Both the position numbers and the translations under genes were made by a program. Positions 1,985 to 54,157 of a DNA stretch of 64,000 nt are shown here, piece by piece (the first letter of the stretch is position 1; every line of letters begins with the position of its first letter). Where the stretch lies: contig NGBS01000590.1 of the NCBI GenBank assembly GCA_002245135.1, forward strand, positions 1 through 64,000. Direction: 5' to 3'. Under the pieces are notes generated by a model that was given only the letters and a program-made list of their open reading frames with translations, was not told the DNA's origin and made no database searches. The DNA is from Proteromonas lacertae (lineage: Eukaryota > Sar > Bigyra > Opalinata > Proteromonadidae).

Positions 1985-5093
<3,109 letters not shown>

Positions 5094-5313
5094 TCTCGAT
5101 TTTTTATAAAACGATAAATTTATCAAACCAAAATCGAGCTGAATTTTCAGTTTTTTTTTTATTTCTCGTTAAAGGAGAAGCTATTTTCTTATTTTTTAAT
5201 GATCAAACTTTATATGTATTATATATTACCTTTTAAGTGATAGTAATGGAGAAAATAAACCCATACAAAACAGAATATTAAACTAATTATATAAAAAATA
5301 AATATTAATTATC

Positions 5314-6143: not shown

Positions 6144-7448
6144 ATGAATAAATTTCTCATTATCGCTCTACTTTTATGTGTTGTTTCAGCTGACACTTGG
6201 AATGTTATTGTCGCTGGATCATACCAATACAAAAATTATCGTCATCAAGCTGATGCTTGTCACAATTATCAAATTTTAAAACGAAATGGTATTCCTGAAG
6301 ATCATATAATCTTGTTTATGTATGATGATGTTGCTTATGCTGAAGAAAATCCATTTAAAGGACATTTATATAACCAAATTGGTGAAGATCCTGAAGATGT
6401 ATACGATGGATGTAAAGCTTCCTACACTGGAAAGAAGATCACTCCAGAAGTATATTTAGCAGTATTGATGGGAGATGTAGAAAAAGTTCGAAATTTGACA
6501 GGAATAGAAAACCCTCCAGTGTTAAGAAGTACAAAAGACGATTTAGTATTTCTATCTTTCTTTGATCATGGTTCTGAATTAGTCGTAGGCTTTCCCGATG
6601 ATCACTTACACGCTGATGATCTATTACATACCTTTGAAGAAATGCATGCTAAAAACAGTTATAAGAAATTAGTATACTATATGGAAAGTTGTCAATCTGG
6701 ATCAATGTTTGAAAATATCTTACCAACTAATCTCAGCATTTACGCAACAACTCCAACTCATCCATATGAACCATCTTGGGGATATTATTGTGATGGTTTA
6801 ACTAAGGGTGTGTATATGGAGACTTGTATGGGTGATTTATTTGCTTGTACTTGGATGGAAAAGGCTGATGAACATGATAAAAATGAAACATTATATTCTC
6901 ATTTCCAATTCATATTGAAGAATGTAACTAAATCTCATCCTCAACAATATGGTGATTTAACATTCTTAAATGATTCTTTATGGGATTATTTAGGAACTAA
7001 AGACAACAAAGAGAATGTTGTTCCAAATAAGAAACATTTAAGAAACAATAAGAAAGAAGAAATAATTCAAATTCCAATTGACAGTACAGCTGCAACAATC
7101 AAATATTTACATAATAAATTAAGTCATGCTAAAAGTGTAGAAGAAAAACGAAAAGTAGAGATGATGATGAATGAAGAAGAAGAAATGAGACGAGATATAA
7201 ATTTGAAATTTATGAAAATCATAAAGAAGTTGAATTATGAAAATTATGGTGCAATGAAGAAAGTTCGACAACCATCTCATTTAAGACATTGTTATTATAA
7301 AGCGATTGATACATATCGAGATAATTGTGGTTTTAACGAATATGCTTTCAACTATTATCACAGTTTGATGAATTTATGTTCTTTTGAGAATGGTAAGTCT
7401 GAAAATATCGTTAATGCTATTAAATCAGTATGTTCAAAAAGTAATTAA
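6144..7448 (+). CDS. legumain-like asparaginyl endopeptidase (C13), active-type
   Basis: Lysosomal or secreted cysteine protease cleaving after Asn. From ATG 6144 the protein starts with a clear signal peptide (MNKFLIIALLLCVVSA), then DTWNVIVAGS and NYRHQADACHNYQ, the hallmark first strand of C13 peptidases. The catalytic dyad is intact: His142 in FFDHGS and Cys183 in YYMESCQSGSM. The C-terminal prodomain ends with the conserved cysteine pattern HCYYKAIDTYRDNCGFNEYA and SLMNLCSF. Its length (434 aa) is normal for legumain. It is uninterrupted, has no visible intron and lies 73 bp upstream of a second, degenerate legumain in the same direction. Likely made as a self-inhibited zymogen activated at acid pH, as known for the family. 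Confidence 0.93.
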   Translation: MNKFLIIALLLCVVSADTWNVIVAGSYQYKNYRHQADACHNYQILKRNGIPEDHIILFMYDDVAYAEENPFKGHLYNQIGEDPEDVYDGCKASYTGKKITPEVYLAVLMGDVEKVRNLTGIENPPVLRSTKDDLVFLSFFDHGSELVVGFPDDHLHADDLLHTFEEMHAKNSYKKLVYYMESCQSGSMFENILPTNLSIYATTPTHPYEPSWGYYCDGLTKGVYMETCMGDLFACTWMEKADEHDKNETLYSHFQFILKNVTKSHPQQYGDLTFLNDSLWDYLGTKDNKENVVPNKKHLRNNKKEEIIQIPIDSTAATIKYLHNKLSHAKSVEEKRKVEMMMNEEEEMRRDINLKFMKIIKKLNYENYGAMKKVRQPSHLRHCYYKAIDTYRDNCGFNEYAFNYYHSLMNLCSFENGKSENIVNAIKSVCSKSN

Positions 7449-7521: not shown

Positions 7522-8877
7522 ATGTTGTTTTTCGTTTTTCTCGTGATATTAAGCTTTGCTTCTGCTTATAATTATGCGTTACTAATAGTTGGTACTAAAG
7601 GTTATCCAAATTATCGTCATCAAGCTGAAGCATGTAGATTAGGCCATATGCTTCTTGATAAAGGGATTAAGTCGCCTCATTTAGTTATATTTTCTTACAA
7701 TGATGCAGTTAATGCAGATGAAAACCCTTTCAAAGGTGAACTATATTCTGATCCAGATTCAAATAAAGAATTGTATAGTGGATGTGACATTGATTATTCT
7801 GGTGACAATGTTAATGCTATGAATATAATAGATGTTCTATTAGGAAGATCATCCAATATTGAGAAATTTAGTGGAATGAAAGAAGCTAAAGTGTTTAATA
7901 CAACAAATAATGATAATATATTTATAGCTTATTTTGGTGAAGGTGATAATAATAGTTTATATCTACCCAATTCAAAATTAGGAATTAATGATTTAATCGA
8001 TACATTTAAGGTTATGTATAAGAATAAGTTGTATAATGGAATATATTTATTAATACAATCAACTGGATCTAATTATATAATGGATAATTTACCAGATAAT
8101 ATGAAAATATATAGTTTGACATCTTCCACTTCAAATCCAATTTTCTGCTCAATTAATGAAGAGTCAGTCAAAATAAAGAGAGCAATAATGAATACATGTT
8201 TAAATGATTTATTAATATATAAAATAATACGATTTTATGAATTACATAATGGAATAGTGTTGATCAAAGAAATGTATAATGAATTAAAAAATCAAAATAT
8301 TTCTCTTCTTATTGAGAATGGTGATTTAAAAAGAATGTCCAATTATCCAATTGATATGTTTTTAGATTCAAATTATGGCAGAGAATTTGAAAATAAATAT
8401 ATTGATAGTTTCAATGTTCAGAAACGAACAGATTTAGCATCAGAGAATAATGGTTTATTTAATGAAGTAAAAGGCATGCCACAACGTGATGTAAAATTAT
8501 TTACACTAAATAGAATGTTTAATAATACAGTAGATGAAAAGAGAAAAGAAACATTAATGCAACAGATTAAAGAAGAAGAACACTATATTAATATTACAGA
8601 TGTGAGATTTACTGAATTGGTGAAGTATGTTGTAAAGTCTAAAGATCCCTTAGTTATTGATCATTTGCTATCTCAACAGAAGAACAAAAGAAGTGATGAC
8701 AGAAGGTGTTATTATGATATGGTGAAGAAATATATCAAGCAATGTGGACCTTCTAAGGAGTATGCTTTGCATTATTATCATGTGTTGATTAATATTTGTA
8801 ATTATCTGTATGGAGATGTTGAAGAGATAAGTAGAGGTATTGATGATGTTTGTCAAAGGTTGAAATTATTTAATTGA
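7522..8877 (+). CDS. legumain-like pseudoprotease (both catalytic residues lost)
   Basis: 451 residues from ATG 7522, chosen because it starts a good signal peptide (MLFFVFLVILSFASA). The fold is kept: YNYALLIVGTKG, NYRHQAEACRLGHML, ENPFKGELYSDP and the full C-terminal prodomain with RCYYDMVKKYIKQCG and VLINICNYLYG. The active-site motifs are gone: the DHG histidine loop reads YFGEGDN (Glu140 in place of His) and the ES/AC-x-SGS cysteine loop reads LIQSTGSNY (Gln179 in place of Cys). The reading frame is open over the whole length, unlike many neighbours with indels, so it looks maintained. It may be an inhibitor, chaperone or substrate trap for active legumains encoded next to it; that is inference. 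It reads in tandem with the active gene 73 bp upstream. Confidence 0.88.
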   Translation: MLFFVFLVILSFASAYNYALLIVGTKGYPNYRHQAEACRLGHMLLDKGIKSPHLVIFSYNDAVNADENPFKGELYSDPDSNKELYSGCDIDYSGDNVNAMNIIDVLLGRSSNIEKFSGMKEAKVFNTTNNDNIFIAYFGEGDNNSLYLPNSKLGINDLIDTFKVMYKNKLYNGIYLLIQSTGSNYIMDNLPDNMKIYSLTSSTSNPIFCSINEESVKIKRAIMNTCLNDLLIYKIIRFYELHNGIVLIKEMYNELKNQNISLLIENGDLKRMSNYPIDMFLDSNYGREFENKYIDSFNVQKRTDLASENNGLFNEVKGMPQRDVKLFTLNRMFNNTVDEKRKETLMQQIKEEEHYINITDVRFTELVKYVVKSKDPLVIDHLLSQQKNKRSDDRRCYYDMVKKYIKQCGPSKEYALHYYHVLINICNYLYGDVEEISRGIDDVCQRLKLFN

Positions 8878-8958
8878 TTGTTATTTAATGAGTTTTTTTG
8901 TTTTTTAATTATGAAACGAATCTATTTTTGTAATGCAAAATAGAATATAATTCTTTTG

Positions 8959-10422
8959 ATGAAAAAAAGAGAAAGAACTGAGATGGATGAAGAAATAAAA
9001 AAGTGTTTTTGTATTTCTTTATGTATTTATTTATTAGCTGAAAATGAACAAACAATCTTATCAAGAAGTGGTCCTATTTTCGGTGATGAAGGAATGCAAG
9101 CTATTAAAGATTCATTTGTTATTATAGTAGGACTTGGAGGAGTTGGTATAATTACTTTAATTATGTTGTAGGAAGTCATGCTACAAATATGATTGCTAGA
9201 TCAGGAGTAAGAAAGATTAGAATAATTGATTTTGATGTATTGACTTATTCATCCTTGAATCGACATGCTGTAGCCACTTTAGTTGATGTTGGCAAAGCTA
9301 AAGTATTGATTTACATTTAATTTATATATCCATTTAGGTTGATGTCCTTAAGAACTATATATTCCAATTTTCTCCATTCTGTGAAGTGGATGCAAGAAAT
9401 GAAATGTTCTGTGAAGAAAAAGCTGAAGAATTATTATCAGGTAATCCTACTTATGTATTGGATTGTATTGATGATGCAAATACTAAAATTAGTTTAATTT
9501 CATATTGTTTAAATCATAATATTCCCATCTTATCATCCTTAGGAGCTGCAGCTAAAATTGATCCTACAAAAATATATATTGGAAATCTACAAAATGTTAG
9601 AAGTATTTTTCTATTTTCTATTCTTTTAATTAGATGATGGTTTAGCAAGTAAATTGCGTTTTAAATTACGAAAATGTTGTCCAAAATCATTAGAAGAATT
9701 AGAAGTAGTATATAGTAGTGAATCGCCAGTAATAAGTCTACTACCATTAGATAACAAATCAAAAGTATAATTTTATTATTTTATTTATTTATTTATTTAA
9801 TTATTAGGATGAAGCTCCACAAAATAGAGGAGGTCATGAATATATGAGAACAAGAATATTACCAGTACTTGGGACAATTCCAGCCATATTTGGTCAAACT
9901 ATGGCAAACCATGTAATTAATCAAATATCAAAGTTGAAATATATGCCATCTGCAGCTCCACATATAGGAAAAGATATTCGTATAATTGTATTATTTTAAT
10001 TGTTATTTAATAGGATGTAAATTATATTCACATCTATTACAAAGAGAACAAAATATATATAAAAGTGAGTATATTTTGATTCTTTTATTTTTTTTGTAGT
10101 ATGAATAATATCAATTTCAACCAATGGGATATTGATTATATAGTTCAAGAAATATGGCATCATCGTTCACCAATCAGTGGAGAAGCATTAGGTGTAAGAT
10201 TAATGGAATTAGTAAGATGGGATAAAGATAAACCATCTGATTGTACTAATTTAGTGTTAATGACAAAGGATGAAATGATCAAACATGATAATATGAAATC
10301 ATTAGATGAATATGATAGTGAAATTGTATATTATTGTTATTATTTTATATTAGAGAAAGAAAATTGAAGATAGACTTACTTTAGTTGGAAATTGGGAAGC
10401 TAGAAGTAGAGGTGAAATTTAA
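8959..10422 (+). CDS. tRNA threonylcarbamoyladenosine dehydratase (TCD1/2, TcdA/CsdL family)
   Basis: E1-like enzyme that cyclises t6A to ct6A at position 37 of ANN-decoding tRNAs using ATP. Assembled across eight introns, all clean: 9011-9037, 9146-9171, 9303-9337, 9603-9633, 9765-9807, 9980-10013, 10069-10099 and 10326-10353 (26-43 nt). Motifs in order: RSGPIFGDEGMQAI, the nucleotide loop GLGGVGSHAT split by the second intron, DFDVLTYSSLNRHAV, DCIDDANTKISLI, SLGAAAKIDPTKI, then GTIPAIFGQTMANHV and the long eukaryotic C-terminal part with YIVQEIWHHRSPISG, ending LVGNWEARSRGEI. No frame break was found. The yeast homologues are attached to the mitochondrial outer membrane; no membrane segment is obvious here. 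It converges with the third legumain, 47 bp apart. Confidence 0.93.
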
Positions 10423-10450: not shown

Positions 10451-10763
10451 TTCTTATTCTTACAATTATTTAATATGGTAAACTTTTACAAACTTCTTTC
10501 ATTGAATCTATTATTGAAGAACTCTTCCCATCACTGAAGTCACATAAATTCATTAACACAGGATAATATTTTAAAGTATATTCACGAGTTTTACCACAAT
10601 AGTTCTTTCGAGCTTCAATCAACTCATAATAACATTCTTTATTAGCAGAATAAGATGGACCACTATTCAATATTTTAGATTTCATTTTCTCATTTCCTCC
10701 TGTCACTTTATTCACCAATAAATTAAATCGATTATCAGTTACTCGACGATAATTTTCTTCTTC
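10451..10763. repeat. duplicated legumain 3' end, copy 1
   Basis: About 313 bp almost identical to 11877-12190, spanning the last ~95 codons, the stop and the start of the 3' flank of two tandem legumain genes. Only a few differences were seen (for example CC/CCC near the stop and ATTTTC/ATTCTC). Upstream of this tract the two genes diverge sharply. Confidence 0.85.
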
Positions 10764-11790
10764 ATTAAACATTGATAAATATTTACTTCTCTCTTTTTCA
10801 TTTTTACTTTCACTTAATTTATTCTTTAAGAATGTCATATAAACATCTTGACTTTTTACAGCTCTTGAATAGGATTTTATTCTAGGATTTCTTACTTCAC
10901 CTCTTAATGATTTTCGATTGTTATTATTTCCATTTCCAATAAAATCCCAAATTGATTCATTCAGCCATTTTAAATCACCAAATTGTTGAGGATGACTCAT
11001 ATCTGTTCCTTTTAATATTATCTTTCCATTGATCTTTCAAATTTTCATCTTTCTTGTTTAAATCTGTATCTTCCATCCATACTACTGAGAATAAATCTCC
11101 TAAACAAGTGTCGATATATTGTCCTTTAACTATTTCATCACAATAAGCAGCCCAAGATGATTCTTCAGCATTTGAAGCTGTTACTGCATAAATGTTCATA
11201 TTATCTCGCATTTCTGCAAACATACTTCCACTATAACAAGCTTCCATATAATACACTATCTTTTTATACATCTTTTTATTTTGCATAATTCTAAAAATAT
11301 TCATTAAATCCTTTGACTTAAAATCATCATCCAAATCGGGAAAACATAACACATCAGGTGCACCATGATCAAAGAATGATAAGAATACTGTATCTTCTTC
11401 TGTACTTTTTAACACTACTGGATCTTTAATTCCTGTTACATTTCGAATTGTATCTACATCTCCTGTCAAAACAGCTTTATAAACTGTTGGATTTACATCC
11501 TTCATTCGATAAGTAGCTTTACAGCCTTCATAAACATCTGGAGGGTTTTCACCTGGTTGATTGTATAAATGTCCTCGTAATACATTGTTAGGATCATTTG
11601 CAATATCATCATATGATATTAAGATGATATGATCTTCTGGAATGCCATGTGCTTTATGAAGTTGATAAGAATGACAAGCGTCAGCTTGATGACGGTAGTT
11701 CCAATAACAGTATGATCCAACTAAAATAACAGCCCATTGATCACAAGAGACAACTGCCAATAATGCAATATAGAAGTAAATAAACTTCAT
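10470..11790 (-). CDS. legumain-like asparaginyl endopeptidase, active-type
   Basis: Signal peptide MKFIYFYIALLAVVSC from ATG 11790, then DQWAVILVGSYCYWNYRHQADACHSYQ. Catalytic His is in SFFDHGAPD and catalytic Cys in YYMEACYSGSM; the prodomain contains ECYYELIEARKNYCG and VLMNLCDF and the protein ends SLPY. One frame break near 11010, in a TATTAAAAGG stretch, splits the ORF between the catalytic domain and the linker before SHPQQFGDLKWLNES; the rest aligns with the other legumains without gaps, so an indel error or a very recent lesion is likely. Its 3' end is nearly identical to that of the next legumain gene. A TCAAGCC element lies about 30 nt upstream of the ATG. Confidence 0.9.
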
Positions 11791-11876
11791 TTTTAAAAAT
11801 GAGACACAAACTTATTTTAGGCTTGATTAAAAAATATTTAACAAGTTATTAGAATATAACGAATTTAATAATATTT

Positions 11877-12190
11877 TCTTATTCTTACAATTATTTAATA
11901 TGGGTAAACTTTTACAAACTTCTTTCATTGAATCTATTATTGAAGAACTCTTCCCATCACTGAAGTCACATAAATTCATTAACACAGGATAATATTTTAA
12001 AGTATATTCACGAGTTTTACCACAATAGTTCTTTCGAGCTTCAATCAACTCATAATAACATTCTTTATTAGCAGAATAAGATGGACCACTATTCAATATT
12101 TTAGATTTCATTCTCTCATTTCCTCCTGTCACTTTATTCACCAATAAATTAAATCGATTATCAGTTACTCGACGATAATTTTCTTCTTCT
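11877..12190. repeat. duplicated legumain 3' end, copy 2
   Basis: Partner of the tract at 10451-10763. The boundary at 12190 is abrupt: beyond it the linker between protease and prodomain differs in nearly every codon. Such a patch is typical of gene conversion rather than of uniform divergence after duplication. Confidence 0.85.
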
Positions 12191-13216
12191 TTTAGTGTTG
12201 ATATTAACTCAGATTTATACTTTTCATTATTAGATGATTGGATCATACTCTTTAAAGTATACATATATACGTCTCTACTACTAATCTCAGATTTAGGTGA
12301 TTTTATTCTGGGATTTCTTATTTCACCTCTTAATGATTTTCGATTGCTATTATTTCCATTTCCAATAAAATCCCAAATTGATTCATTCAACCAACTAAGT
12401 TCTCCTATCTGTTGAGGAGAACTTCTTGTAACTCCTTTTGTTATAATATTCCATTGATCTGATAGTGTTTCATCTCTCTTATTCAAATCTGTATCTTCCA
12501 TCCATACAATTGAAAATAAATCTCCTAAACAAGTGTGATAATTCTCTCCTCTTACTGTATCAGTTTTATCACAATAAGCCGCCCATGATGATTCATCTCT
12601 AGTAGCGGCTGTAACTGCATATATGTTTAATCCATCTACTCCGTTAAACATACTTCCACTATAACATGCTTCCATATAATATACCAATTTCTTGTACATT
12701 TTTTTATAGTACATTTTATGTAGAGTAGTTACTAACAAATCATTACTTAATTCTGAACCATCTGGGAAACAAATTATATATGGACCACCATGATCAAAGA
12801 ATGTTAAAAACACTGTGTCGTTCTCATTACTTTTTCAAAACTGGAGGATTGGTTCTTCCTGTTAAATTCTTCACTGTATCTACATCTCCTGTTAAAACAG
12901 CTCTATAGACTGCTGGAGTTACTTCATTTTCTCTATAGGATATTTCACAACCGTCATAAACATCGGGAGGATTATCACCTGGTTGATTATAAATATGTCC
13001 AGGGAAAGGATTAGCACTATGATTAGCAATATCATCATATGCTAATAAAATAATATGGTCTTTTGGAATTCCATGTGCTTTATGTACTTGATAAGCATGA
13101 CAAGCGTCAGCTTGATGACGATAGTTAAACCATGTATGTGAACCTGCTAAAATCACAGCCCACTGGTCAGCTGATACTAATATGGCTGATAAGAAGAAAA
13201 AAACTAAAATTTTCAT
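11895..13216 (-). CDS. legumain-like asparaginyl endopeptidase, active-type
   Basis: Paralogue in tandem with the previous gene. The start at 13216 opens the signal peptide MKILVFFFLSAILVSA; the upstream in-frame ATG at 13273 would place a basic stretch before it and is less likely. NYRHQADACHAYQ, the His loop TFFDHGGPY and Cys loop YYMEACYSGSM are all present. Two homopolymer shifts occur: one extra A near 12833 (VLK-SNENDTVFL) and one extra C near 11901. Without the second, the protein would end SLPY with a TAA at 11895-11897, exactly like its sister; as written the frame runs on to 11827. It has the same prodomain, and TCAAGCC lies about 35 nt upstream of the ATG. Confidence 0.9.
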
Positions 13217-13425
13217 TTTAGAATTGAATGTGGAACACAAACCTTTTCTTGGCTTGATCTTTTTTCTTTTCATTATGATTAATATTTTATGATAAACACA
13301 CTAATTTAATAATCAACATAATCTTGATGTTAAAATATTTATATTTTTTTCAATTTTAATGATTCATAATTCATAAATTTCTTTATTACATATAACTTGA
13401 ATATTTGAAGTATACATGCATTTTA

Positions 13426-27260: not shown

Positions 27261-30200
27261 ATGGAATCTGAAGCGAAGGAGCAGCAATTCAAGTAATAGA
27301 GATGATGGTGGTGTTAAATATAAAGTATTTTCTATTGGTTTAATATGTTTAGATACCTGAATGGAAGACCTATGTGGTAATGTATGATATGCAAGATAGT
27401 CATGATCCAAAATTAAAGAGATTGTTGAAAAAATATAGCACAGAAATGATTGAAAATATAAATGGACATAAAACTCCAAGATCTGTTGGAAATTTTGTTC
27501 TAATAGATAGAGAATGCATAGATCCTGATAATACACGAAGTGCAGAACGAAAAGCAGATATTTTATCAACAATAATAGAAAATGACAGAAGAACTCATTT
27601 TGGTGAAGAAGAACTGTTACCTTATGAACAACCACCTGAATCTCCTGCAGACCAAAAAAAGAAAAAAGGAAAATCATCAGCACCACCAGCTAAATCAAAG
27701 ACATCCAAAAAAGGAAAAGATGAATCAAAATCACCTCCTAAATCTCCAAAAATGAATAAAAAATCAAAATCAGATAATCAGCCAGAGCTTGAAAATGCAA
27801 ATCAAACTAATGAAACACAACAACCAGAAGAAAATGAAAATAAAAATGAAAAAAATGAAGAAGATATTTTATTCCCATACAATGAAATTGAAGATAAACC
27901 ATATGTTCCAGATAGAATATTTATATTAACAAATTACCCACAAAATGAAGAAGAATATAATGAATTAGTAAAACGACATTTATTACAAGCGATTTTATAT
28001 TTAACAGAACCACGAAGGGTAGTTAATTCAACAATAGTTCCACAATCAATTCCAATGATTCAAGTAGATGAATTTGATTTTAATTTAAGTGAAAAGAATA
28101 TAATAAAAACTATTAGAAATAATGAGAATAATAATTTTATAACAAATATACAAGAAATTCCAGAAATCAATTATCAATTAGATCAAAAAGATGATATTCC
28201 AATAGAAGAAGAAAAAACAGAAGAAGAATTGAAACAAGAGGAAGAAGAAAGACTTCGAAAGGAAGAAGAAGAAAGACAAAGAATAGAAGAAGAAGAACGA
28301 AAGAAGAAAGAAGAAGAAGAAGAAGCTGAACAAGAAAAATCAAAGAAAAGAAAAAGTGTAGCAAAAGATAAAAAAGGAAAAACTAAAGAAATAGAAACAC
28401 CTGAAATTGATATTGCCGAAGAAATGAGAAAGAAAATTGGAATATTTGTACAACCAACTAAAATTACACCATCTTTTATGTTATCTACAATAATAAAATG
28501 TTATTATGATAATATAAGTAATGAAGATTATAGAAATATGATATTTTTACAATTTCCAGTTGATAAATCGTTAGAAATAGAAAAACAAGCAAGATCATAT
28601 GATGAAATTGATATGTAATAGTGGAATGCAATATTATAAATATCAAAAATGGAGATTTGAATTACCCATGTTTCTATCTGCTACAAGTGTAAGTGATAAT
28701 AATAATAAAGATGAAAATCTGAATAATGAAAATCCAAATGAAGAAGAAAATAAGAAAAATGATACAAAAGGAAAGAAAGAAGATAAATCACCAGCTGGTA
28801 AAGGTAAAAAAGGGAAAAAGGGAAAAGAAGAACCAATAGAAGAAGAAAAACCACCAGAAATAATAGAAGAAAAGAAAGAAGATGAAAATGAAAAGAAAGA
28901 AGAAGAAAAACCACCTGAGAATATTCTAGAAACAAGAGTATATAAAATATACCAAGATTATAATTCAAGAATAAAGTTTCATTATAATGATTTAATAACC
29001 TTAATGATTACAATGATCGATAGTGTAGCATATGAATGTATTGATAAAGCAATGGATTTACAATTACATCCACCTCCAGTAGAAGAACAAGAAACAAATC
29101 CAACAGAAAATGAAGAAAATAAACAAAATGAAGAAAAGAAAGAAGAAGAAGAACCTACAGTTGAAGTTGTAGAAGAAGAAGAAGAAGATGGAAAGAAAGG
29201 GAAAAAAGGGAAAGATAAAAAAACACCAGCCAAAACACCTAAAGCACCAGCAAAAGATAAAAAAAGAGAAAGCAAAATAGGTAAAAAAGGAAAGAAAGGA
29301 CAAGAAGAAGAAGAAGAAAATAAAGAAGAAGAAAAACTACAGATTCCAGTGATAAGAGCTCCTCCTCCATTAGAACCAGCTAAACCTGTACCACCATTAC
29401 CACCAGAGACACAAATGTGGAGAACACCAGAAAATATATTAAAATCATATTCAAATTTAAAACCAGATGAATCTGTAATAAATTTACTATCAAATGAACA
29501 TATAGACTATAATCAAAAGAGTAAAACAATATATGAAAGAAATGAAATATTGAAATTAATAATTGAATGTAATTTAGATGTGAGAGAAAATGGATTGAAC
29601 TATTATAACTTATATGGAAATAATTACTTAGAAAAAATCACATCATTGATAGATTCATTACCAATTCCTGGATTTTCATTAGAAAATTTCCCTCCAGAAG
29701 ATGTAAGAATAGATAGAGAGAAATTAAATATATATTTTACAAAACTCCATTATTATTCTGATTATCCAATTAATGAATTAAGAATGAATGATTTAATATT
29801 ACAATTTGAAGATTATATTAATATAATCGATCCAAATGCGAAAGAAATATGGAAGTTTAATAATCGAAGATATATCGAATATTTAGATGAACAATGTCTT
29901 AAACAAACAATCAATGAATTATATAAACATCCATTATCAATCTATTTGAAATATTTGCCTCAATATGATCTATTATTACTATTAAATCATTATAATACTC
30001 CTCATAGTCGATTTACTGTAATTAAAGATACAACACTTCCATTTGATGATTCTCATTTACCTACATTCCAACAATATTATAATTACATATTAGAAAATTC
30101 ACAAGGAAATGAAGAAGCAATAGTTCCAATTAAAAGTCATATAGTAACAACAACAGGTGAAGATTTACCAATTGATCCAGAACAACAACAATTACATGAA

Positions 30201-33128
30201 CATAAATTTATATTTCCATCTGATCATAGTTTAATCGAATTCCAACCGAAAAGAATCAATGTTTCTTATTATAACTTTAATTTTGGCTTAAAACCAACCA
30301 ATGAAAAGACAATGGAACATATAGTAAGTAAAGAAGAACCAAAATATGAAACTCTTTCATCTTTTTATATGAACTTCAATGAAGGTAGTTCATTATATTA
30401 TCAAGCTGGTTATCCAATGCCTGGAAAGAATGATGGATATGATAGTATATTAATGACTTACAATGAAATGAATGGAAATGAATATGATGTATATAGTCAT
30501 GGAATGATTAATATAAACAGTATTAGAGGTAAAGATGAATTGAATGAATATTGTCGACAATGGTGTGGAAATGGAGATATGATTGTTTATTATTATTATA
30601 AAGAACCAGAAGTTGAAGGAGAAGTAAAAGAAGATGAGACAAAAGAAGAAGTGAAAGAGGAGGTAAAGGAGGAGGTAAAAGAAGAAGTGAAAGAAGAAGT
30701 GAATAAAGAAGAAAATGAAAATAAAGAAGGAGAACAAACTACAGAAACAACAGGAGAAGAAGAAGAAGAAGAAGGACAACAACAAGATCCTCAGCCAAAT
30801 GAAGAAGAGAAAGAGAAAGAAGAAAATAAGCCAAAATTCTCCAAGATGATATATCATTATGATGGAAGTGTCACAATAGATGATCCATTACAAGAATTAA
30901 CAGTATATGAAAGTGGAGAGCAATATTTAATAGTAAAAGAAACAGGAGAAGAAGGTGAAATAGACCCAATTGAAGTATTTGAATATGATGATGACGAAAA
31001 TAACTGTAAGATAATAGCAAGACAAAATATATTTGGTGAATCTTTATCAATTGAATATATAAATGAAAATATAGTGAGAACTATCTATCATGATGGAACA
31101 AATATATTCTTTGATAAAAAGAAAGATATGAAATATTATTACCATCCATTTTATGGCACTGTAATATTGTATAATGATCACAATGAAGTATGTTTAAAAC
31201 ATCAAAATGGTATTAAATGCCCAATGAATTTAAGTGGAATAAATCCTCGATATAAGTGTTATACTTTAGATGGAACATTATTAAGAATGAATTATGACAC
31301 AAGAGTAATAGCGAAATATAATGGAGTATTAGAATGTTTAAGATATGATAAAACATTAATCAAAGGAAATGATGGTGGATTAATAGAAGTAATATATGGG
31401 AAGAATAATCGACCATCTTATGAAAATGATAATAGTAATAAAGAAGAAGAAGAAAATGAAAATGTTCCACCTAGTGCTAGAGAACAATCTGATCATACCA
31501 TAGGTAATTATATATTTAATTTCAACGAAGGATATATGGATTTCCATGATCCAGAATATAATCATTATCATATTGATTATAATGGTGAACATATAGTAGA
31601 ATTGACTGGTATATTGAGTGGTTGTGTTACAGAAACATGGATAGATAATCCATTACAACCACAATTGTTTATATTAAAGAGAGATGGAAGTGGTTATGAA
31701 TTGTTAAGAAATAATGATATAGAAGAATATAAACGAAGTGTTGAATACCACAGTAATTGTCAGAAAAGGATTGATAGTGATGTTTGTATAGAAAGTGGTG
31801 AAATTGGTAAGAATAAGTCAATAACATATGAATGGGAGTTAGGTGTAGATAGAGATGAGTTGTATGAAGTATATAATAAATGTAAATTACCAATAAAAAT
31901 CCGTTATTATGAAAATATGAGAATAGATCATCCATTTACCTATAAGATATATAGAACATTCTATGAAATAAATCCATTTGATGAAAATGACAGAAATCAT
32001 TTGAAAAATATAATCAATGAATATCGTGAACATATGCAAAAGATTGAGAATGATTATATAAAATATACAGTTGATATTCCTGAAGAAAAAGATGAAAATA
32101 AAACTAATGAAATATCATTAAAAATCCAATCAGTTAGAAAGAAAAGAGCGAAGCATTTAAGACATGAAGAAAAGAGAAAAGAAAGAGAAGAAAAAATGAA
32201 ATTGAAAAATGAAAGAAAAAGTATGTTGGAACAAAAAGCTAAAGAAGAATATCAAGAGAAAATCAGAAAATCACAAATGTGGACTAGTCCGCTTCAAAGT
32301 ACTTCAGTAAGTCAAGATGGAAGTAGAATGTTAAATAGTCAAGCAATTAAAGAAGAAGATGAAGAAGGAGAAGGTATTATAAATAAAGAAAACAGTTCAA
32401 TGTTATTATCAGATGGAAAGAGTAAAAGAGTTGTTAATAGTGATAATAATTATTGGAAATCTGGAATATCACCAAGTGTTGATAGTTTACCATCTGAAGA
32501 GAGATTTAAGAATAGCAGTAATAATGATGATGATGAAGAAGATAAAGATAAACATGTGAAACCATTTGATGGTACAGTAATGAAAGAGAATAATGATAAA
32601 AAAGCAGATTCTTCAGAAGAAGAAGAAGATGATGATGATGAAATATTACCATCAGTTGCATCATCATCTTCATTCTCCAATAGAAATTTGAGAAATAATA
32701 CAAATCGACCTGAAAGAATCAATTCATCTGACGAATTAAATGAATTAAGAACTCACAGCAGTAGAAGAATAAAAGATCGATTAGTAAATGGAGAGATACA
32801 AGAAATATCTGATTTTATTTTTGATAAATATGAAATTGATTTTGGTAAAATTAAAGTTAATAGTATAGCAAATGAATGTTTTATTGCTCAGAATGTTGGT
32901 TATTTGAGTTATAGATTGAGAGTTGATCATCCGAAACAGATAGCTAATCATAAGAGAGATGAAAATTATTTGACTTGGAGTTTAGACAGTACAAAAGCTT
33001 CTCCAGGAATGAAAATACATTTGAAAGTGAAATTAGTTGCAAATTGTGTTTGTAGTTTTAATGATTATGTTGAAGTTGTTAGTACTCATTCAAGATTTCA
33101 TTTAATAGTAAAAGCAGAAATAGTTTAA
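27261..33128 (+). CDS. SPAG17: SPAG17/PF6-like central-pair apparatus protein
   Basis: Giant acidic, Lys/Glu-rich axonemal protein, about 1,940 aa. The order resembles SPAG17/PF6 of the C1a projection: an N-terminal conserved block (IPEWKTYVVMYDMQDSHDPK after intron 27325-27352), KKGKK/EEEE low-complexity segments, a conserved middle (PETQMWRTPENILKSYSNL, HIDYNQKSKTIYERNEIL), repeated Tyr/Gly-rich beta motifs around 30300-31700 (YHYDGSVTIDDP, IYHDGTNIFF, IDYNGEHIVEL), and an MSP/ASH-like domain at the end (YEIDFGKIKVNSIANECFIA). The C1a projection controls ciliary beating with calmodulin-binding partners. A frame overlap at 28599-28618 and another near 27290 break the ORF; I regard them as indels in one gene. 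Exact start uncertain. Confidence 0.8.
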
Positions 33129-33568: not shown

Positions 33569-35658
33569 TTAATCTTTATGAGAAACTGATAATAATTCAA
33601 GTGAAGTGTTTTGGTATAATAATTCAGCATATGTATATAATGGATAAGGTAAATCTTTAACAAGTAAAACAGGAGATGAATTATTATGACTTATCCAAAA
33701 TTCTCTTTTATTCATATCAACAATCACTTCATAAATTGAACCATCTCCATGATTATTGAAATGAGGATTTGAAGTAACAACTCTTCCAATATGACAATAA
33801 TAAGTAATATCTTTACTTTTACCATAACGTGCATAATAATTACATGTTGTTGATTGATAATGAATATCATAACCAGAATATGTATTATTAGTTGATAATC
33901 CTAACATCATATCATTATATTTATTTCCATTTTGATAAAATTGATATTTGATATGATAAACTCCATTTTCCATTTTCAAATTCAAATAACAATGATTCCA
34001 CCATTCATCTGTATTTGTTATTAATTTTCCATTATCTGATACTTCTATTTCATCACTTTTGTTTAATTCTATGAATTTTATATCATCAAATTCTAATGAT
34101 ATTTTGAATTTCTTTTCATTTAGAATATTCTTACAGATTATTTCATATTCTCTCTTTTCCATTTCTTTATTCACTTTTCCATCAATTATTCCACTCTCTT
34201 TATTTAACATTAAACCATCAGATAATGAAGGATTGATTGAAAATTCACATCGATTTCCAGCAAATGAAGGAGTTATTGATATTTCTTCATAAACACTATA
34301 TGAATATTCTGATTGAGGATATGAAAATGATGTGATTTCTTTTGTTTTTAATTCACTCAATAATTCTTTGTCTTTCATTATTTTTATCATTTCTTCTTCT
34401 TCTTCAAAACTCAATTTATTCTCTTTTATATATTCTATTAATATATCTTTGGACTTTGAATTTAAACAATTATCTTCATTCAATATTCTAAAAAGAATCT
34501 CTTTTCCACATATTTCTTCTATTATTGAAATATTCTTTTTATCATCAACAAACAAACATAAACATTTCATTGTTCGATTTCTTTTATTCTCATTGTATTC
34601 CATACATAATCTATCCAATAGATTTCTCTTTTCGATATTTGAGATATATTCTATTTATATATATTTTTAGTATTTATACTTTCCTTTTTCATATTTTTAT
34701 ATTTCATTATCATCAATACTATTTCCATCATTTTTATATTATTCATTTCTAATATACACATTATTTCATCATTCAATTCTTCTTCTTTTATTCTATCCAA
34801 TATTCTTTTTTCTTCTTCATTAAAGTCTTCTTCTTCATTATCTTCATTGTAATTGTTGATTATTACATTTTGAATTCTCTCATCTTTTATTAAATATATT
34901 TCTATATGATTTTTACATTCATTTTTCTTTAATTCTATTTTCATTTCTTTCAACATTTCTTTATTCTCTTTTTCTATCTCATTCTCTTTTATCTTTTCAC
35001 AATCGATATCTTCTTCTATCAATTGCTTAAAATCATCTTCTATCTCTTTATTATCATTGTTATTCTTTTGGAATTTATACCATTCTAATAAGCGATTTAA
35101 TAACCATAACTCATTCACTATTATCACATCTTTCATATTTAATATCTCAATCAAATTATTCATTTCTAATCTCAACAAATATTCATTCTTATATAAATAT
35201 TTATATCCTCGCTTTTCTATTTCCATATTTTTCAAGTCTTCTATCTCTCTCAAACATCCACCAAATACATTAAAAATATGAATTAATTTCATTAATACTT
35301 CATCATCTATATTATTCTTCATAAATTCATAACAATTATTTATTATCTCTTTTTCACAATAACATAAACAAAACATCAACACTTCACATACACTCTCTTT
35401 ACAGATTATCAATTCACCACCACTGTAGTATTTCTCCATCTCATAATAGCCAATTTCTTCGATTTCTTCATATAACTCTAAAACTCCAACAAACTCACGA
35501 TCTAACAACAGTTTCTTTAATGTTTCATTTCCATTCACTAAAATTGACTTGATTGACATTATTTGATTATCTCCAATCTTCACTTCTATATCACCAAAAC
35601 CACTTTCAACCAATTTTCGACATAATCTATCATAAAAATAAATATAAAATATACCCAT
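33569..35658 (-). CDS. BTB - PIG repeat - SPRY-like domain protein
   Basis: About 690 residues once a 1 nt shift near 34650 is bridged (otherwise two abutting ORFs). The N-terminal part resembles a BTB/POZ fold (SGFGDIEVKIGDNQI, SIKSILVNGNETLKKLL, a repeated YYSGGELIICKESVCEVL and a BACK-like helical region to about 34800). Then one PIG repeat (TSFSYPQSEYSYSVYEE, GNRCEFSINPSLSDGL, SGIIDGKV) of the same type as in the nine-repeat gene. The C-terminal ~150 residues look SPRY-like: LGLSTNNTYSGYDIHYQ, CHIGRVV, GDGSIYEVIVDMNKREFW. BTB proteins commonly act as Cullin-3 adaptors; the SPRY and PIG parts could be the substrate side. Domain calls are by eye. Several decayed copies of the SPRY region exist in this window. 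Confidence 0.6.
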
Positions 35659-36601
35659 TATCTCTTATGCTTTTATTCACTTTTATTATCATCTTTATGT
35701 AAATATAAAACAAAAATAACGAAATTGAATTTTTATCAAAATTTTGAATAACCCAAAAATTAAAATGTGATTTAATTCAATTGCAGAAGGTGTGATAAAG
35801 ACAATAATACTCAATTATGATTTATTTATGCACATTGCCTATGATATGATGATATAAATGATGAATAGTAAGTGAGAGTGTTAGTTAGTGTTATTGAAAG
35901 TGAAATGTAATGTAAATATCTCATTGATGGTTATTAATATTTTTAATGAATTGGATGTTAATAGAAGATATAAGAGATATAGATTGAAAATTTAGGTTGT
36001 AGTGCAATAAAAAATGTTTGTAGAGTGTATGATGTAACATCGGTAGAACTATCTAATGATGATGAAACAATAGTAGTTGCAGTTGTTATTCCAGTAACGA
36101 AGAAATAAGCATAAAATGTTATGAATATTGCTTAAGTAATAAAAACAATAAATTTATATGACGAAGAAGATAAATAAAGTGATTATACTATAAAAGAAGA
36201 ATGTTTACTCAATTTGTAGTAATTAGAAGTCAAGTATTTATTTATATTTGTTATTATCTTTCCATTATTTGAAATTGATATTCCATTACTTTAGTTTAAT
36301 TCTGTGAATTTTATTGGTTTTAAACGATTTTTTAAATCATTAATTGTTTATTATGCATTTGGACTTCTTTTTGCACATTAGTTATCAGTTTTATTATTAT
36401 CTCCCAATTGGCACTTGCATTTTTATTGCTAAATGGAAAGTAGCGTTTATCCATGTTTATGTAAAAAGAAAATCAAATTTACAGAAAGAATATATGTCAA
36501 GCTTTTGAATTGAGCTTGAATCTATTCTTTTCATTTATTCTTTTTTAAACCAACAAATAAACACATAAAACGTAAATAAAAAATGTAATGACATAGAAAA
36601 A
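35659..36601. other. long gene-poor region with a decayed fragment
   Basis: 940 bp of AT-rich sequence upstream of the BTB-SPRY gene and downstream of the AXDND1-like gene. No intact ORF. It contains a short relic of the SPRY-protein linker at about 36230-36320 (listed separately). Confidence 0.5.
36230..36320 (-). pseudogene. decayed fragment of the PIG-SPRY family
   Basis: The + strand text TTTGTTATTATCTTTCCATT followed by ATTTGAAATTGATATTCCAT and TTAATTCTGTGAATTTTAT follows base for base the segment 34012-34085 of the BTB-SPRY gene (DNGKLITNT / ELNKSDEIEV / IKFIELN) with scattered substitutions and an in-frame stop. No flanking coding sequence survives. Confidence 0.6.
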
Positions 36602-39600
36602 TTAATTAAAAGCTAAATTAGGAACGTATTGTTTTCTAAAATCAATTCTGAAGTTTGGATACTTATAAACCATATCTAACACCCTATTATAATTAACATG
36701 TGAATGACCTGTCACTAATCCATCGTTTAGTTCAATCCAATATTTATCAACAACATCTTTCTTTAATTTAGGTTGCATTAAACACATCAATACAGAAAAT
36801 TGATCATAGTCAATCAAATGTTCATCTTCGTCTTTATTAACAAATAGTCTTCTATAAGATTTTATAAAATACTCTTTAAACTTCATTTCTAAGGTAGAAT
36901 ATAGATTTATCATTACCATTATAAAACTCATCCTTTCTATCTTATATTTACCGACTATCAAATATTTATCACTTATACCACTTAAAATAGTGAAATAATT
37001 TCTTATTATTTCATACCTTTTTTGACTTAATATTGAATCTACTTGGCTTTCTTCACTATTTGAAATTAATATTTTTATTAAGCTTTCTTCAGTCATTGGA
37101 TGTAATTCTCCTATCATTGTTCTATACACAAATAAACACCTAACTAAATCAAATTTCTCATAAACAATTCCTTTTTCTTTTTCTCTTTCTATATCAACTC
37201 CTATATTGCTTGTATTTAATAGATTATAACATTTTAAGAATATTTCCAATAGATTATTATTATATAATCTTTTTAAGAAACGGTAAAATAGATCAAAACC
37301 AATATAATCGTTTCTATATTTATCTAATGATTTTATAAAACATAATAATGTCAAATGAATTGGTTGGACTTTTCCATACTTCTGTAATAAATAAAACAAT
37401 GTAAAATCACTCAATTCAACCTTTACTTCATTATTCACTTTAGTTTTCATATACAATTTATTATAAGCATTCCATATTTGATAAACTAATAATATACTTT
37501 TAGACATTGAATATTCTTTAATATTCTCATAATTTGTTTTTAATTTCTTTAAACTAATTTCAAATAAATCACATAAATCTTCAAATATTTCATGATTATT
37601 ATCATTCTCATTCGTATTCTCATTGATTGATTTTGTATTCTCTTTTTCTACAATTGATAATGTTGATTCTAATGTCAAAGTACAATTATTTAAATCTAAA
37701 AGTATCTCCTTGATTATTTTCACTGTTATTATTATTATTATTATTTTCTTCTTCTTTCACCGTTATTGGAATTCTATTCTCATAATAGTTTGTATATGCT
37801 TTTAGTTTACTTTCTAAACTCTCAATTTTAGTTTCCATTTCAGCAATTTTCTTATTCTTTTCATATAATTTATTCACTAATTTCTTTTCTCGTAAAGCTT
37901 CACTAATTGCATCTCCTGTCGTTTCTATTACCTTATTATTATTATTTTTACTTTTGTTATTATTGCCTGTTTCTTCTAACACATTATTCTCTGATTTTTG
38001 TATTTGTATTAATGCTTTCTTCTTTTGCATTAATTTGTATAATGTTGAATTCATATAGCCAGGATTATTCTTCATATCATTTTCATTCATATGTTTCACT
38101 TCAATCTTAAACTCTTTATCTTTCTTTTCTTTCACTTCTCCTTCTATATCTTCCTTTTCTTCATCAACTTCTGGAGTATTATTAAATGGTAAAGATCCTT
38201 TCATCTTTTGCATCTTTGTATTAACATTATTATTCTTATCTTTAATTATTGTTTCACTCACTTTTATATCTCCTGTTCTATTCATTCTCTTCTTTGGACT
38301 TTTTGGAGGTAAACCATTGGGAGATGATGTAACTGACGATTCACTAAACACTTCGCCAACTTCAGTAATTGGATGAATAATTGAACTTAATCTTCTATGA
38401 TTTTCACTATCATTATATCTCTGTTTTATTTTATTTATCATTAGTTTCTGACTATCTGATTGGTCTGGTAATACAACATCATAATCATATATATTACTTG
38501 TTCTACTTAATCTTCTCTTACTATTATTATTATTATTGTTACCTACCATACTCTTTCTAAGGATTCTGTGATGTATTTTCTTTGGTTTTGGTGGAGGACA
38601 AACATTTTCAGATGGTTTGTATTTAATAGGAAAATGAGTCGAAACTAATTTACCACCATCATCATATATAAATGAATTATCTTTATATTGTCTATAACTA
38701 AGTGGAATGATAATGTCATAATTATAATTACTAGCATTATCTTCACTTCGAGAAAAGTCATGTAATTCACTAAATGTAGATAAATAAGATTCTCTACGAT
38801 GAGAAGGTGAAGATAATAAGGACGTTAATGATTGATATAAGTCATTATATCTTTCTTGTTTTAATAATCTGCTCATTTGTGCATGTAATACACCATCTGT
38901 ATTATCTTGTACTGATGGTATATTTAATTTTCCTAAATTCTCACCTTCTTTACTGGAATATTCACTTAGATTCATTTTGTTACTGTCTGTTGTTTCAGTT
39001 GTATTTGTTGTATCTGTACTACTTTGTTGTTTTTCATTATTTTCTTCATTATTCTCTCCTTCATTATTAATATTATTTTCTTTTAATTTACTATTCTTTT
39101 CATTCTCACTGAATATCTTAATATAATCAACTTTTTCCTTCTTTCTTCTCTTCAGTTTCTTCTTTTTATTCAATGATGAGATGATTCTTCTATGTTTCTT
39201 TACTCCCTTATTATTATCATTATTTTCATTTCCTTCATTTGGCTGTTCATTTCCATTATTAGTTGGATCATAAGTTATATCAACATGATCTACACTATCT
39301 TCATCATATACATTATTCTCATCATAAACACTACTATTGTCACTGTCAGTTTCATAATAATATTCATATTCTGATTCATCATCATCATCATCATTAATAT
39401 CATTATTATTTTCTTCACTGTTATTTCCTATTCTACCAAATTCACATTTTATTTCTTCAGCTATACTCTTCACTTCACATACTAAATCTTCAGGTTTTAG
39501 TTCATATTCTTCCATTGATGATCTCCTATTACTTTTGTTATTACTATTATTAATAATTTGATGTATTGCTTGTAATCTACTCATTCTTCTAAATTGTGTT

Positions 39601-42600
39601 GGACTAATATTTTCAGGTATTTCAATATCAGGTAATTCAGATGATAAACTCTTATCCAAATTATTATTTTCATTATATGTATTTGTCCTTGGAGCAGATC
39701 GTGGTTGAGATGGTGAAATTATTTGTTGTTGGATAATTGGTGAAGTATTTACACTATTTCTCCTTGAATTACTATTACTATGTAAAGATTTGGTGGATAT
39801 CAAAGTATCTAAAGTTCCAGGTGTTGTTGAAGACACTAATAATACAGATCTTGCACTGTTATTACGTGATTCTGAATTAATTAAGTTTTTCAACTCTGCA
39901 CTTGGTTCATAGAGTGGAGTATCATTCAATATCTGCAATTCACATTGAACTGAACAATCAACACATGTTTTTGGTATTATTGGATTCATTAAGCTGTTTT
40001 TATCTGGTAATATGGATGATCTTCCTCTTGAAGTTGGTGATGATAGTGGTGAAGGTAATGGTGAAGATGAATAAAGACTACTCTTTCGATTTAATGATAA
40101 ACGACTAGTTCTTCTAAAAGAACGACGTTTTTCTAGTTGTTTCTTTTTTTAGATTTTTTATTTTTCTGTTTTTTAGATTTATTTTCTCCATTTTTATTAT
40201 TTCCTTCTTCTCCTTCTTCTCCATTATTATTATTTTCCAAATTATTCTCATCTTCTTCATCTATTGAACTAATAGATGATAACTCATCATCTAAAATAGG
40301 TAAAGTTTTTAAAGCAGATAATGCTTTCTTATACATCTCCATTTTCTCAGGTTCATCTTTATTTTTACTTACTAACAACTCCAAACTACCAATTACACTA
40401 TCTTCAGTTATTTCACCAATAGATATATCTTTCAATGAAACGAATAGTTTTTCAGTAGTTAATAATTTTTCTCTTAATACAGTACATTGATTTAATATTC
40501 CTGCCAATTTCATTACTCTTTTCATATAACCAGAATATTGTTTAACTCCTTCAGGATTGGATGAATATAACTTATTTTCTATTTGCTGTAAGAGATTTTG
40601 TATTATTTTTGTATCTTTAAACATTTCTTTGGTTTTTGGATTTGAAACTAAATTGATATTGTCACTTATTACTGGAGTTATTGTTTCTGCGATGAATTGA
40701 AACACATTATCATAAGTACCAACAGCTGTATAAAGTGATTTCAATATGATTTTATTGAATTCTTCATCAGCTTCAATGTTAAACTGTTTAAAAAACATCT
40801 TAATAATCATCAATAAATCCACAGGTTTCTTTAATTCTGAAATTTCATTTATTAGTTTATAAGAATCATCAAAATATTGACATAATAATTTCAATAATGA
40901 ACAATTATAATTACAATGATTTACCCATATTTCCATTATTGATATTTGTTTCTTAATATCATTCTGTTCAGCTGTAGTCATTGATAATGAAGAATTTGAT
41001 AACTTATCCCTCAATTGTTTCAAATACAACTTTTGACTGTACAAATCTGTATTATAAAATTTCATTATTTTCTCCAACACTTGATAACATATTTCATAAG
41101 TAATAAATCCATTTCCTTTATTATTACTATTACTACCACTTTTTCCTTTATAATTATATTTTATATCATTCCATGTATGATAAGACATATAAGTTAACAT
41201 AAAACCAGATATTAAATTACCTATATTTGTCTTATACTTTGGCTTTTTCAATTCTTCTTTATATTTTGCATTATAATCATCAAATTCGATTAAATAAGAA
41301 TCACCAACTTCTGCTTGTATTAAATCTCTCAATTCATTCTCGTCTTTGTATTCTCTATCGCTAATTAAATCAATTACTTTTGTATCAGTTCTTATTAACT
41401 ATATATATTGATAAACAAATAATAAATAAATAACTATACATTAATTGTTTCTTCAGTTGTTCCACCAAATTTCTGTGTTTCAGTTATTCTATTTTTCAAT
41501 AAATTGATATAATCATCAGGTGAATATCTTTCATTATCCAATTCAGTTCAAAAAGTCATCAATACCATTCTCTTCACCTAACGGTTTAATTATATCATTT
41601 ATCTCTTCTTTATTCTTAATCATTCCACCTATAAATGTTTCTATTGTATGAAACTCTTGCATTAGCATTGTAAAATCTCCTTCCCACACGTTTTTATTCT
41701 TAAATTTCATTGCAGTCTCCATCTTTTCTATCTCATAAAACACATTTTTACTCTTTTCTTCTAATTTTTTCTTTTCTTTATAATAACCTTCCATTGTTTT
41801 ATCTATTGATTTTATTCTTTCTTCTCTTTCTCTTGCTTCTTCTAATAATCTTTCTTTTTCTTTCTCAGTTGGATCTTTTTCTAATTCTTCTAAACAGTGA
41901 TGATATTTTTCTACTATTTCTCTATATGCAAATTTAAGTGTGTTATATAAATGCATTGATAGTTTTATTATAGTTTCATATCTTGATCTTACTCTTTCTA
42001 ATAATATTCCACGACTATCACATTCACTGTAAACTTGACGAGTTATTTCTCTTAAGACAATATTCCATAATTTGAATTCATTATATATATTTATATTATA
42101 ATCGAAATCGTATAATAATTCACTATTATATTAAATAAAAAAATAATATTATATAATTTATACTAATGATTAATATTTGGATTTTGTAGTTTATTCATTA
42201 ATGAATTTAATACTTTCTTTGATTTCTTCAACATTAATTCTAATGTTGAATTTAAAAAAGCTACTTGATCTCTTCCATTTGGATTGGCTGAGGGAAATAA
42301 AACATTTTCAAAATGAATTGATTCTTTATCACTTTTTTTCATATTATCATTTGGTCTTGGAATTATATTTGTTGGTATTGCATGTGGTTTATATATTGGT
42401 GATTTAGAGGATATATAATAGGAAGAAGGAATAAGAGACGATGGAAGTGAAGTAGAAATTGGAGGTAAATATGGATCTGTTGATTTTAATAAACTTCGAA
42501 TGAAATATTCATCATTTCCAATACGTTCTGGAATTTTTAGTGGTTTACGAGGTGAATTAGCGAATTTTGATAGACGAGAGAGTTTTATTGTGTTGTACTC

Positions 42601-52100: not shown

Positions 52101-54157
52101 ATTTAGCTATGTAATTATTGATGAATAGCAATATCATGTTATTATATCTCATATATGTCAATGTAGATTTATTATCTTCTTTATTATTTATTCTTACATC
52201 TAATTCTGGATAGTTTATACCACTATTATCAACTGTATGTGGAATAACTCCGATTAAATCATAATTAATAACAAATGGTAATTCACATTGGCCCATAATA
52301 TTCTTCATATTCATTAATCCATTACTAAATAATGATGAATTTAACCATACAGATGTATCTTGTTCTTCATACGATACAGTCAATGATCGAGTTAATAATG
52401 AAGCAGAATAACCACATACAAATGATATATAATCATATAAACACTCAATCTGAGTTGTTGCAGTATTATTATTAGAGATATTTAACTTCATATAATCATA
52501 TACATTGTTTCTTAATGATATTAAATCACTTGAAACAACTGAAATTAGTGGGTAAATAAACTCATCTGGTAGATTCACTAATATAAACAATATCAAGTAT
52601 AAATCAGCAGGTAATAATTGATATATCAACGTACTTTCATTATCAACAGTTTTACTCTCATTTAATCTTACAATATAATCTCTACATAGTATAATTAAAC
52701 CATCCATCATCTCTATTAATAATAGAAATTTTGATTGTATTAGTGTCAATGATTGTTCATTATGATCACATTTAGCTATTTCATAGACTATCTGAAACAC
52801 AGCTGATTCTAATATATATAAAACCAAACTTTGACTCAAACTATTATTCGAATCTTTCAATGATAATGATATTAAAGTTCTAAAGTAAATTTCTTTGATT
52901 TTGGGGTAATAAACATCTCTTTCAAATCGACACATCTCTCGAGGATCTGTTAATAATGGTTTAAATTGATCTACAATCTGATTGGATAGTATATTATCAT
53001 ATTTACTGGCATTTACTAAGATTTCTAACTTCACTCCTGGTTCAGAATAATTCATCACGTTTTCACAATAATTACTTAATATTGTTGCTAATTTCAAGTT
53101 ACTTAAGATCTTTATATTCTCTTTATAATTTGCATTAGATTCATTTGTCCAATCATTGTATTTTATAACGGTCATATTTATAATATTTTGGAGTTGTTCA
53201 AATACATCTGTATAACAGTATTGAGTTGCCTTTATATCTCTAGCAAATAGATATTTCAACTGATGATCTAATATTTTAAACAAACACACCAATAACTCCA
53301 AGTCTTCACTTGTATTATTATTAGAATTCATTATTGATTTGATATATTCTAATAATATATATAAATAGTGTGGATTATATTCAACATAATGCCATTTAGT
53401 CTCTTTTAACTCTGATATTAATCGAATGAATGTAGATATATATTGACTGTTATTATTTGTTGTGGTTAATAATGATTTATAATTACCAACTGTGTTTGCA
53501 TCAATATTAACAGTTCTCATATTCATCAAGATGTGGTTTAATAAATCTATAGACTTCTTATCTAATTGTAGTTTATTAAGATAGAATAAGAACTGTAATA
53601 AGTAAGAGACTGAACCAGTTTGAAAGATTAATATTAATATTAAATGAGTAGTTAAATTGGTTAGATTATTATTATTATTATTATTATTATTATTTAAATA
53701 ATCAAATAGATATTTAAATATATTTCTTATAATATAATCATATTTCTTTTCATCTGGCACTGTTCTATCTACTTTAACGGATCTAATTGTATAATGGGTT
53801 TGACTGGGGTTTGAGATGAATATACTAATCAACTCAATATCGTATGGTTTTCTTAATGATTCTTCCAGTATAATATTTACATATTTATCATGGATATTAT
53901 CATCATTTACTGTATAATCGATTTCTACTGGAGGAATACCGCATTCTGTTGAATAAATGATTGTTATTTTCATACTAAATGATAAAAAATATGAATATAT
54001 ATATATACTCTTTTGGTAATACATCACAATCAAATAGGAATTCGATTCTTTCTATTGGATCATTCATTCCTGTACTGGATTCACCAAACGTATAGAAAAA
54101 TGTAACATTCTTTTCATTAATTGATCTTGGTAATGATGATTCTATATAATAAATACA

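Follow-up and report, generated by a model that had tools for sequence, protein, structure and literature searches.

A legumain without its catalytic residues in Proteromonas lacertae: a retained pseudoprotease with a conserved prodomain

Pseudoproteases are known in many protease families, and the case described here is a doubly dead, retained legumain, encoded in a 64,000-nucleotide stretch of Proteromonas lacertae DNA (the window, positions 1-64000 of contig NGBS01000590.1, designated C172, from an assembly of 50.2 Mb in 1181 contigs; G+C content 25-30%). In its product, P0001, both catalytic residues are gone and, since the gene is retained across relatives (three sequences), we are highly confident that it is a pseudoprotease. 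A reversal of constraint between its two domains, together with a free-standing legumain prodomain encoded on another contig, makes control in trans the leading, testable reading: the pseudolegumain would act through its prodomain on active sister legumains, to which we give a probability of about 0.4, the partner, the binding and the effect being what we infer. The features of the gene are listed below.

7522-8877, forward strand: pseudolegumain P0001, 451 residues plus stop codon, a single uninterrupted open reading frame (ORF)
7522-7566, forward strand: hydrophobic N-terminal stretch, resembling a signal peptide by eye (residues 1-15)
7939-7941, forward strand: Glu140, replacing the catalytic His (alignments)
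8056-8058, forward strand: Gln179, replacing the Glu of the S1 pocket (alignments)
8062-8064, forward strand: Thr181, replacing the catalytic Cys (two close relatives have Asn and Ser; alignments)
8389-8451, forward strand: linker of low model confidence (residues 290-310), following an extra stretch that is missing from six active relatives
8476-8874, forward strand: LSAM-type prodomain with activation helix and four Cys (residues 319-451; profile match, alignment and model)
8482-8490, forward strand: Gln-Arg-Asp of the activation peptide (residues 321-323), as in plant prolegumains (alignment)

Residues were placed by alignment to solved legumains (4fgu, 7fqh), to nine close relatives (six of them active) and within a set of 94 sequences (A2) of our own choosing, formed by 14 of the 35 matches of one search, 78 among the 120 matches listed of 181, P0001 itself and the active-type legumain P0002. 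The initial annotation of this gene had assigned the catalytic His to Glu140 and the catalytic Cys to Gln179. All the alignments concur on Glu140; the second assignment has to be corrected, as they place Thr181 at the Cys and Gln179 two residues before it, at the S1 Glu, a position whose counterpart in AtLEG-gamma, Glu217, is the floor of S1 (as described in part of PMC5995516). The S1 set of Arg, His, Glu and Asp is thus incomplete in P0001, with R32, H33 and D229 kept in all three dead sequences. Also confirmed from the initial annotation are the one uninterrupted frame, the first-strand RHQ motif (R32/H33) and the complete Cys-bearing prodomain, which has all four Cys (396, 408, 426 and 444) and scores 36.8 bits against the legumain prodomain profile (cut-off 25.2). 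The Cys pair 209/226 is also kept, the S2 Trp is replaced by Asn and, in the 94-sequence alignment, the specificity loop before it is 3-4 residues shorter. P0001 lacks the catalytic His-Cys dyad, though its Peptidase_C13 domain, at 146.2 bits, is well above the curated cut-off of 22.8. Both catalytic residues are kept in 90 of the 94 legumain sequences, the exceptions being P0001, P0003, P0004 and P0040. A relationship with GPI8 was considered and rejected, as P0001 is not closer to GPI8/PIG-K (also C13) than to legumain, either in sequence or in fold. Four proteins compared with NCBIfam gave no match.

P0003 and P0004 are full-length proteins, 77% and 76% identical to P0001; in both a Glu stands in place of the His, and the Cys is replaced by Asn (P0003) or Ser (P0004). 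An Asn at the active-site Cys, as in P0003, is reportedly found in schistosome Sm32 as a single replacement, with the His kept; our literature searches did not yield it. The identity of Glu140 in the three dead sequences would suit an enzyme of altered chemistry, working through this residue and the Thr, Asn or Ser at the nucleophile position; nevertheless, since that residue is different in each of the three, a common chemistry is unlikely, and we hold this explanation to be very improbable.

The same relatives bear on decay. Other legumain copies in the genome shift frame or carry stops, as would be expected if P0001 were also a decaying allele or pseudogene, and orthologues with intact His and Cys had been proposed in the initial annotation as a sign of this; both close relatives lack these residues. 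Additionally, contig C850 holds a copy of the region at 98-99% identity, in which the pseudolegumain is also open and differs from P0001 at one of 1353 bases (K169R), and when neutral drift to 77% identity was simulated, a mean of 9.3 stops accumulated and none of the 400 runs was stop-free. Based on the relatives, the tree described next, the simulation and the two open copies, we reject decay as extremely improbable.

A first tree of 38 rows held one very long row (P0016), which met the dead clade, and the tree was therefore rebuilt with 29 rows, without P0016. In the rebuilt tree, the stem of the dead clade measures 2.35 changes per column and its tips 0.06-0.14, comparable with the 0.10-0.14 measured for tips in the active pairs P0002/P0038 and P0041/C1140 (C1140 being an open legumain copy on the contig of that name). 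One branch (99/100) separates the dead clade, together with seven relatives from its lineage, from 19 other sequences. The long stem followed by short tips indicates that catalysis was lost, that a long period of change followed, and that the constraint is now like that of the active sisters. We conclude that the loss is old, that the gene is now maintained by selection and that the pseudolegumain is lineage-specific. The HSP90 of this genome, 99% and 91% identical to its counterparts in other assemblies, was placed in a tree of 15 rows, for which 14 matches, mostly from stramenopiles, were chosen among the 120 listed; it groups there with Placidida, Cafeteria and oomycetes, away from the single plant row and the single animal row (SH-aLRT 97). 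Some plant matches reach an equal similarity (75%), and on this evidence the organism is probably a stramenopile. A recent loss within the neighbouring P0002 gene was rejected, P0001 being only 26% identical to P0002 and standing on a separate long stem. The further doubly dead legumain of the lineage, P0040 (Ile at the His, Ser at the Cys), is the sister of the active-type P0039 (100/99), and the tree thus implies two or more losses of both residues within the lineage; the best match of P0040 in the genome of the window is of the P0002 type (47%).

The evidence that points to the prodomain comes from how the two domains have changed. The dead trio is 86-87% identical in the prodomain (residues 319-451) versus 75-76% in the catalytic domain (residues 16-250), and the active pairs are reversed, with 89% (P0002/P0038) and 82% (P0041/C1140) in the catalytic domain and 73% and 76%, respectively, in the prodomain. 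The ratio of differing sites (catalytic to prodomain) is 1.87 for the dead proteins (95% confidence interval 1.27-3.07) and 0.58 for the active ones (0.43-0.81); with three alternative domain boundaries it lies at 1.86-2.13 for the former and 0.56-0.67 for the latter, whose upper limit reaches 1.0 with the narrowest boundaries. Separate trees of the catalytic domain and the prodomain show the same reversal when, their overall lengths being different (10.4 and 27.6), only pairs inside one tree are compared. Additionally, of the columns that are invariant in the six active relatives, all three dead sequences keep 38 of 92 in the catalytic domain and 14 of 16 in the prodomain (p = 0.0008).

This reversal weighs on several explanations at once. 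The initial annotation had suggested that the protein may regulate active legumains or trap their substrates, and regulation fits best, because it is the prodomain, the part through which legumain is regulated, that is better conserved. Trapping is weaker, given the Glu to Gln change in S1, the Trp to Asn change in S2, the shortened loop and the unequal retention of invariant columns. A trap of substrate or product, binding Asn-containing peptides without cutting them, would find R32, H33 and D229 in all three dead sequences; with the floor of S1 changed, S2 altered, an upper-side Ser lost in P0004 and a closed zymogen arrangement in the model, we find it improbable. The same retained S1 residues would serve a decoy that absorbs legumain inhibitors such as cystatins and shields the active sisters. 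Such a role has a precedent in TrCB1.6 of Trichobilharzia regenti, like P0001 a dead cysteine-protease paralogue beside active isoforms, which binds chicken cystatin and is a proposed inhibitor sponge but, unlike P0001, belongs to the cathepsin B family and has its Cys changed to Gly (according to part of PMC7054455). Against a decoy, the inhibitor-binding cleft is the less conserved part, having the same S1, S2 and loop changes, and the prodomain that covers this cleft is the better conserved one, which leaves this explanation unlikely.

The predicted fold of P0001 is that of a complete prolegumain in the closed zymogen arrangement, and the protein is probably secreted or endolysosomal. This same information could also describe a secreted protein unrelated to legumain control (for instance with a surface or host-contact role) for which the fold alone counts. 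Such a change of job fits the stem length of 2.35 changes per column and the 54 of 92 family-invariant catalytic columns that at least one of the three dead sequences lacks; nevertheless, the gene begins 73 bases from the end of an active-type legumain gene (P0002), the whole zymogen architecture is present in the model and 14 of the 16 invariant prodomain columns are kept, and we consider an unrelated role rather unlikely.

For the pseudolegumain as a regulator in trans, legumain zymogens offer a possible mechanism. The activation peptide and the LSAM are the regulatory half of legumain and keep its active site blocked; in AtLEG-gamma they also lock the zymogen into a latent dimer (part of PMC7489914). 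In plant zymogens, a Gln of the activation peptide occupies S1 (parts of PMC7489914 and PMC5995516). P0001 has this Gln, which is found at the activation-peptide position in 7 of the 94 alignment rows. The face formed by the activation peptide and the LSAM would be the working part of the pseudolegumain, in one of two ways. Firstly, the protein could form latent heterodimers with active prolegumains. Alternatively, an active legumain could cut its loose, Asn-rich linker, at the end of which an Asn-Asn-Gly (residues 309-311) is common to the three dead sequences, freeing an LSAM module that would cap the active sites of sister legumains in trans. Either way, activation of the sister legumains would be delayed or limited. 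The dead prodomain is most like that of the C1140/P0041-type active legumain (36-38% versus 21-30% for others), and this type is therefore the candidate partner to be considered first.

A second element of such control may be encoded at positions 58228-58668 of contig C41, where an intact ORF of 146 residues with a signal-peptide-like start specifies a legumain prodomain without a catalytic domain. The protein is homologous to the legumain prodomain, and the top 30 Foldseek rows are all legumains. In this lineage, the legumain prodomain might have been turned into a trans-acting control system, in which the dead legumain and the lone prodomain both act on active legumains, although we regard this wider proposal as doubtful.

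Several observations weigh against control in trans. Concerning the lone prodomain, its Foldseek E-values are 0.009 or worse, it is acidic (-7), and in the alignment it lacks the activation-peptide segment (QRD/SRD) that blocks S1. For the mammalian legumain prodomain an electrostatic latch has been described (part of PMC9788469); being acidic and without QRD/SRD, the C41 protein should not latch an acidic active legumain in this way. The dead prodomain is also less basic, its net charge being +1 to +3 in the dead proteins versus +5 to +7 in the active ones. Concerning the reversal itself, the three dead pairs depend on one another, the species pairs are unmatched and their orthology is inferred (P0003 and P0004 could be paralogues), and the active pair P0041/C1140 falls short of significance when taken by itself (p = 0.22). 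P0040 and P0039, which are not orthologous, show no reversal (152/235 v 42/121; distances 0.67 v 1.88), and the charges of P0040 (-14, 0) set it apart from both the dead and the active sets. In its catalytic domain, P0001 most resembles the dead P0040 (36%), which an action in trans leaves unexplained. The dead catalytic domain, being still 75% conserved, must matter too. For a small disulphide-bearing domain such as the prodomain, stability alone may explain the conservation. Finally, the protein database searched consists of predicted proteins, in which broken relatives would not appear at full length.

Compared with known systems, P0001 is closest to legumain (asparaginyl endopeptidase, family C13; 4fgu, hamster 4d3y, plant VPE), with which it shares the C13 domain, the four-Cys prodomain, the RHQ motif, the S1 Asp and the prolegumain fold. 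It differs from legumain in having the His and Cys replaced, Gln for the S1 Glu, a longer linker, a catalytic domain far less acidic than those of the active relatives and a constraint shifted to the prodomain. With the latent dimer of Arabidopsis prolegumain gamma it has in common the module of activation peptide and LSAM with the activation-peptide Gln; that dimer is a homodimer of active zymogens (as given in part of PMC7489914), whereas what is proposed for P0001 is a heterodimer in which one partner is dead. The C41 protein has parallels in CTLA-2, crammer and BCPI (I29) and in Plasmodium SUB1-ProM, all prodomains encoded without a protease, which unlike it come from other protease families and are reported to act as inhibitors (parts of PMC4089206 and PMC6993865); SUB1-ProM, a subtilisin propeptide that stands alone, inhibits SUB1 (same part of PMC6993865). 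Among the best-ranked matches of our literature searches, there was no free-standing legumain prodomain and no maintained legumain lacking both catalytic residues, the latter having been sought in a literature mostly outside subscription journals; the parts seen of PMC6107103, PMC4842899, PMC10892250 and PMC9499627 contain no case of an inactive legumain. If control in trans is true, it would be, as far as these searches go, the first prodomain-in-trans regulation for legumains; small recombinant proteins could then be used to test it, and LSAM-type binders from nature would provide starting points for legumain inhibitors. A shift of constraint such as this one, away from the catalytic domain and towards the prodomain, is a simple signature that the inhibitory part of a zymogen has become the product.

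The legumain genes next to the pseudolegumain are the following.

6144-7448, forward strand: P0002, an active-type legumain that keeps both the His and the Cys; the open frame extends back to an ATG at 6081
10470-11790, reverse strand: active-type legumain, in two frames in this assembly
11827-13300, reverse strand: active-type legumain, in two frames in this assembly

The three active legumains initially annotated within 6 kb are thus present as far as the two catalytic residues are concerned, which all three neighbours keep, but only the one at 6144-7448 is a single open frame. Other open legumain copies with both catalytic residues are located at positions 77149-78459 of C172 and 189693-190997 of C1140. 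On C850, an additional tandem copy of the P0002 type (10714-11998) is split over frames, with a stop inside the match, and the end of contig C171 falls within the same P0002-type gene, with many gaps.

Between the legumains, at 8944-10367 (forward strand), pieces of a ThiF/E1-like gene, split over frames, were recognized by eye. No Pfam match at an E-value of 0.001 was obtained for four long ORFs, which encode 767-1509 residues (28599-33125, forward strand; 37686-39989, 47193-49979 and 50845-54033, reverse strand). At 3190-5168 (reverse strand) there are, by eye, several stretches resembling a cyclic-nucleotide-binding domain, split over frames, of which the 3190-3741 part scored 21.8 bits in a test for this domain, below the cut-off of 27.5; nearby stretches resemble, also by eye, short GT-AG introns. 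Finally, a 2.7 kb segment of the window (33575-36248) has a second copy, 94.6% identical, further along the contig (about 64.7-67.4 kb), and a 250-base part of the sequence that contains this second copy also matches positions 61074-61318 of the window.
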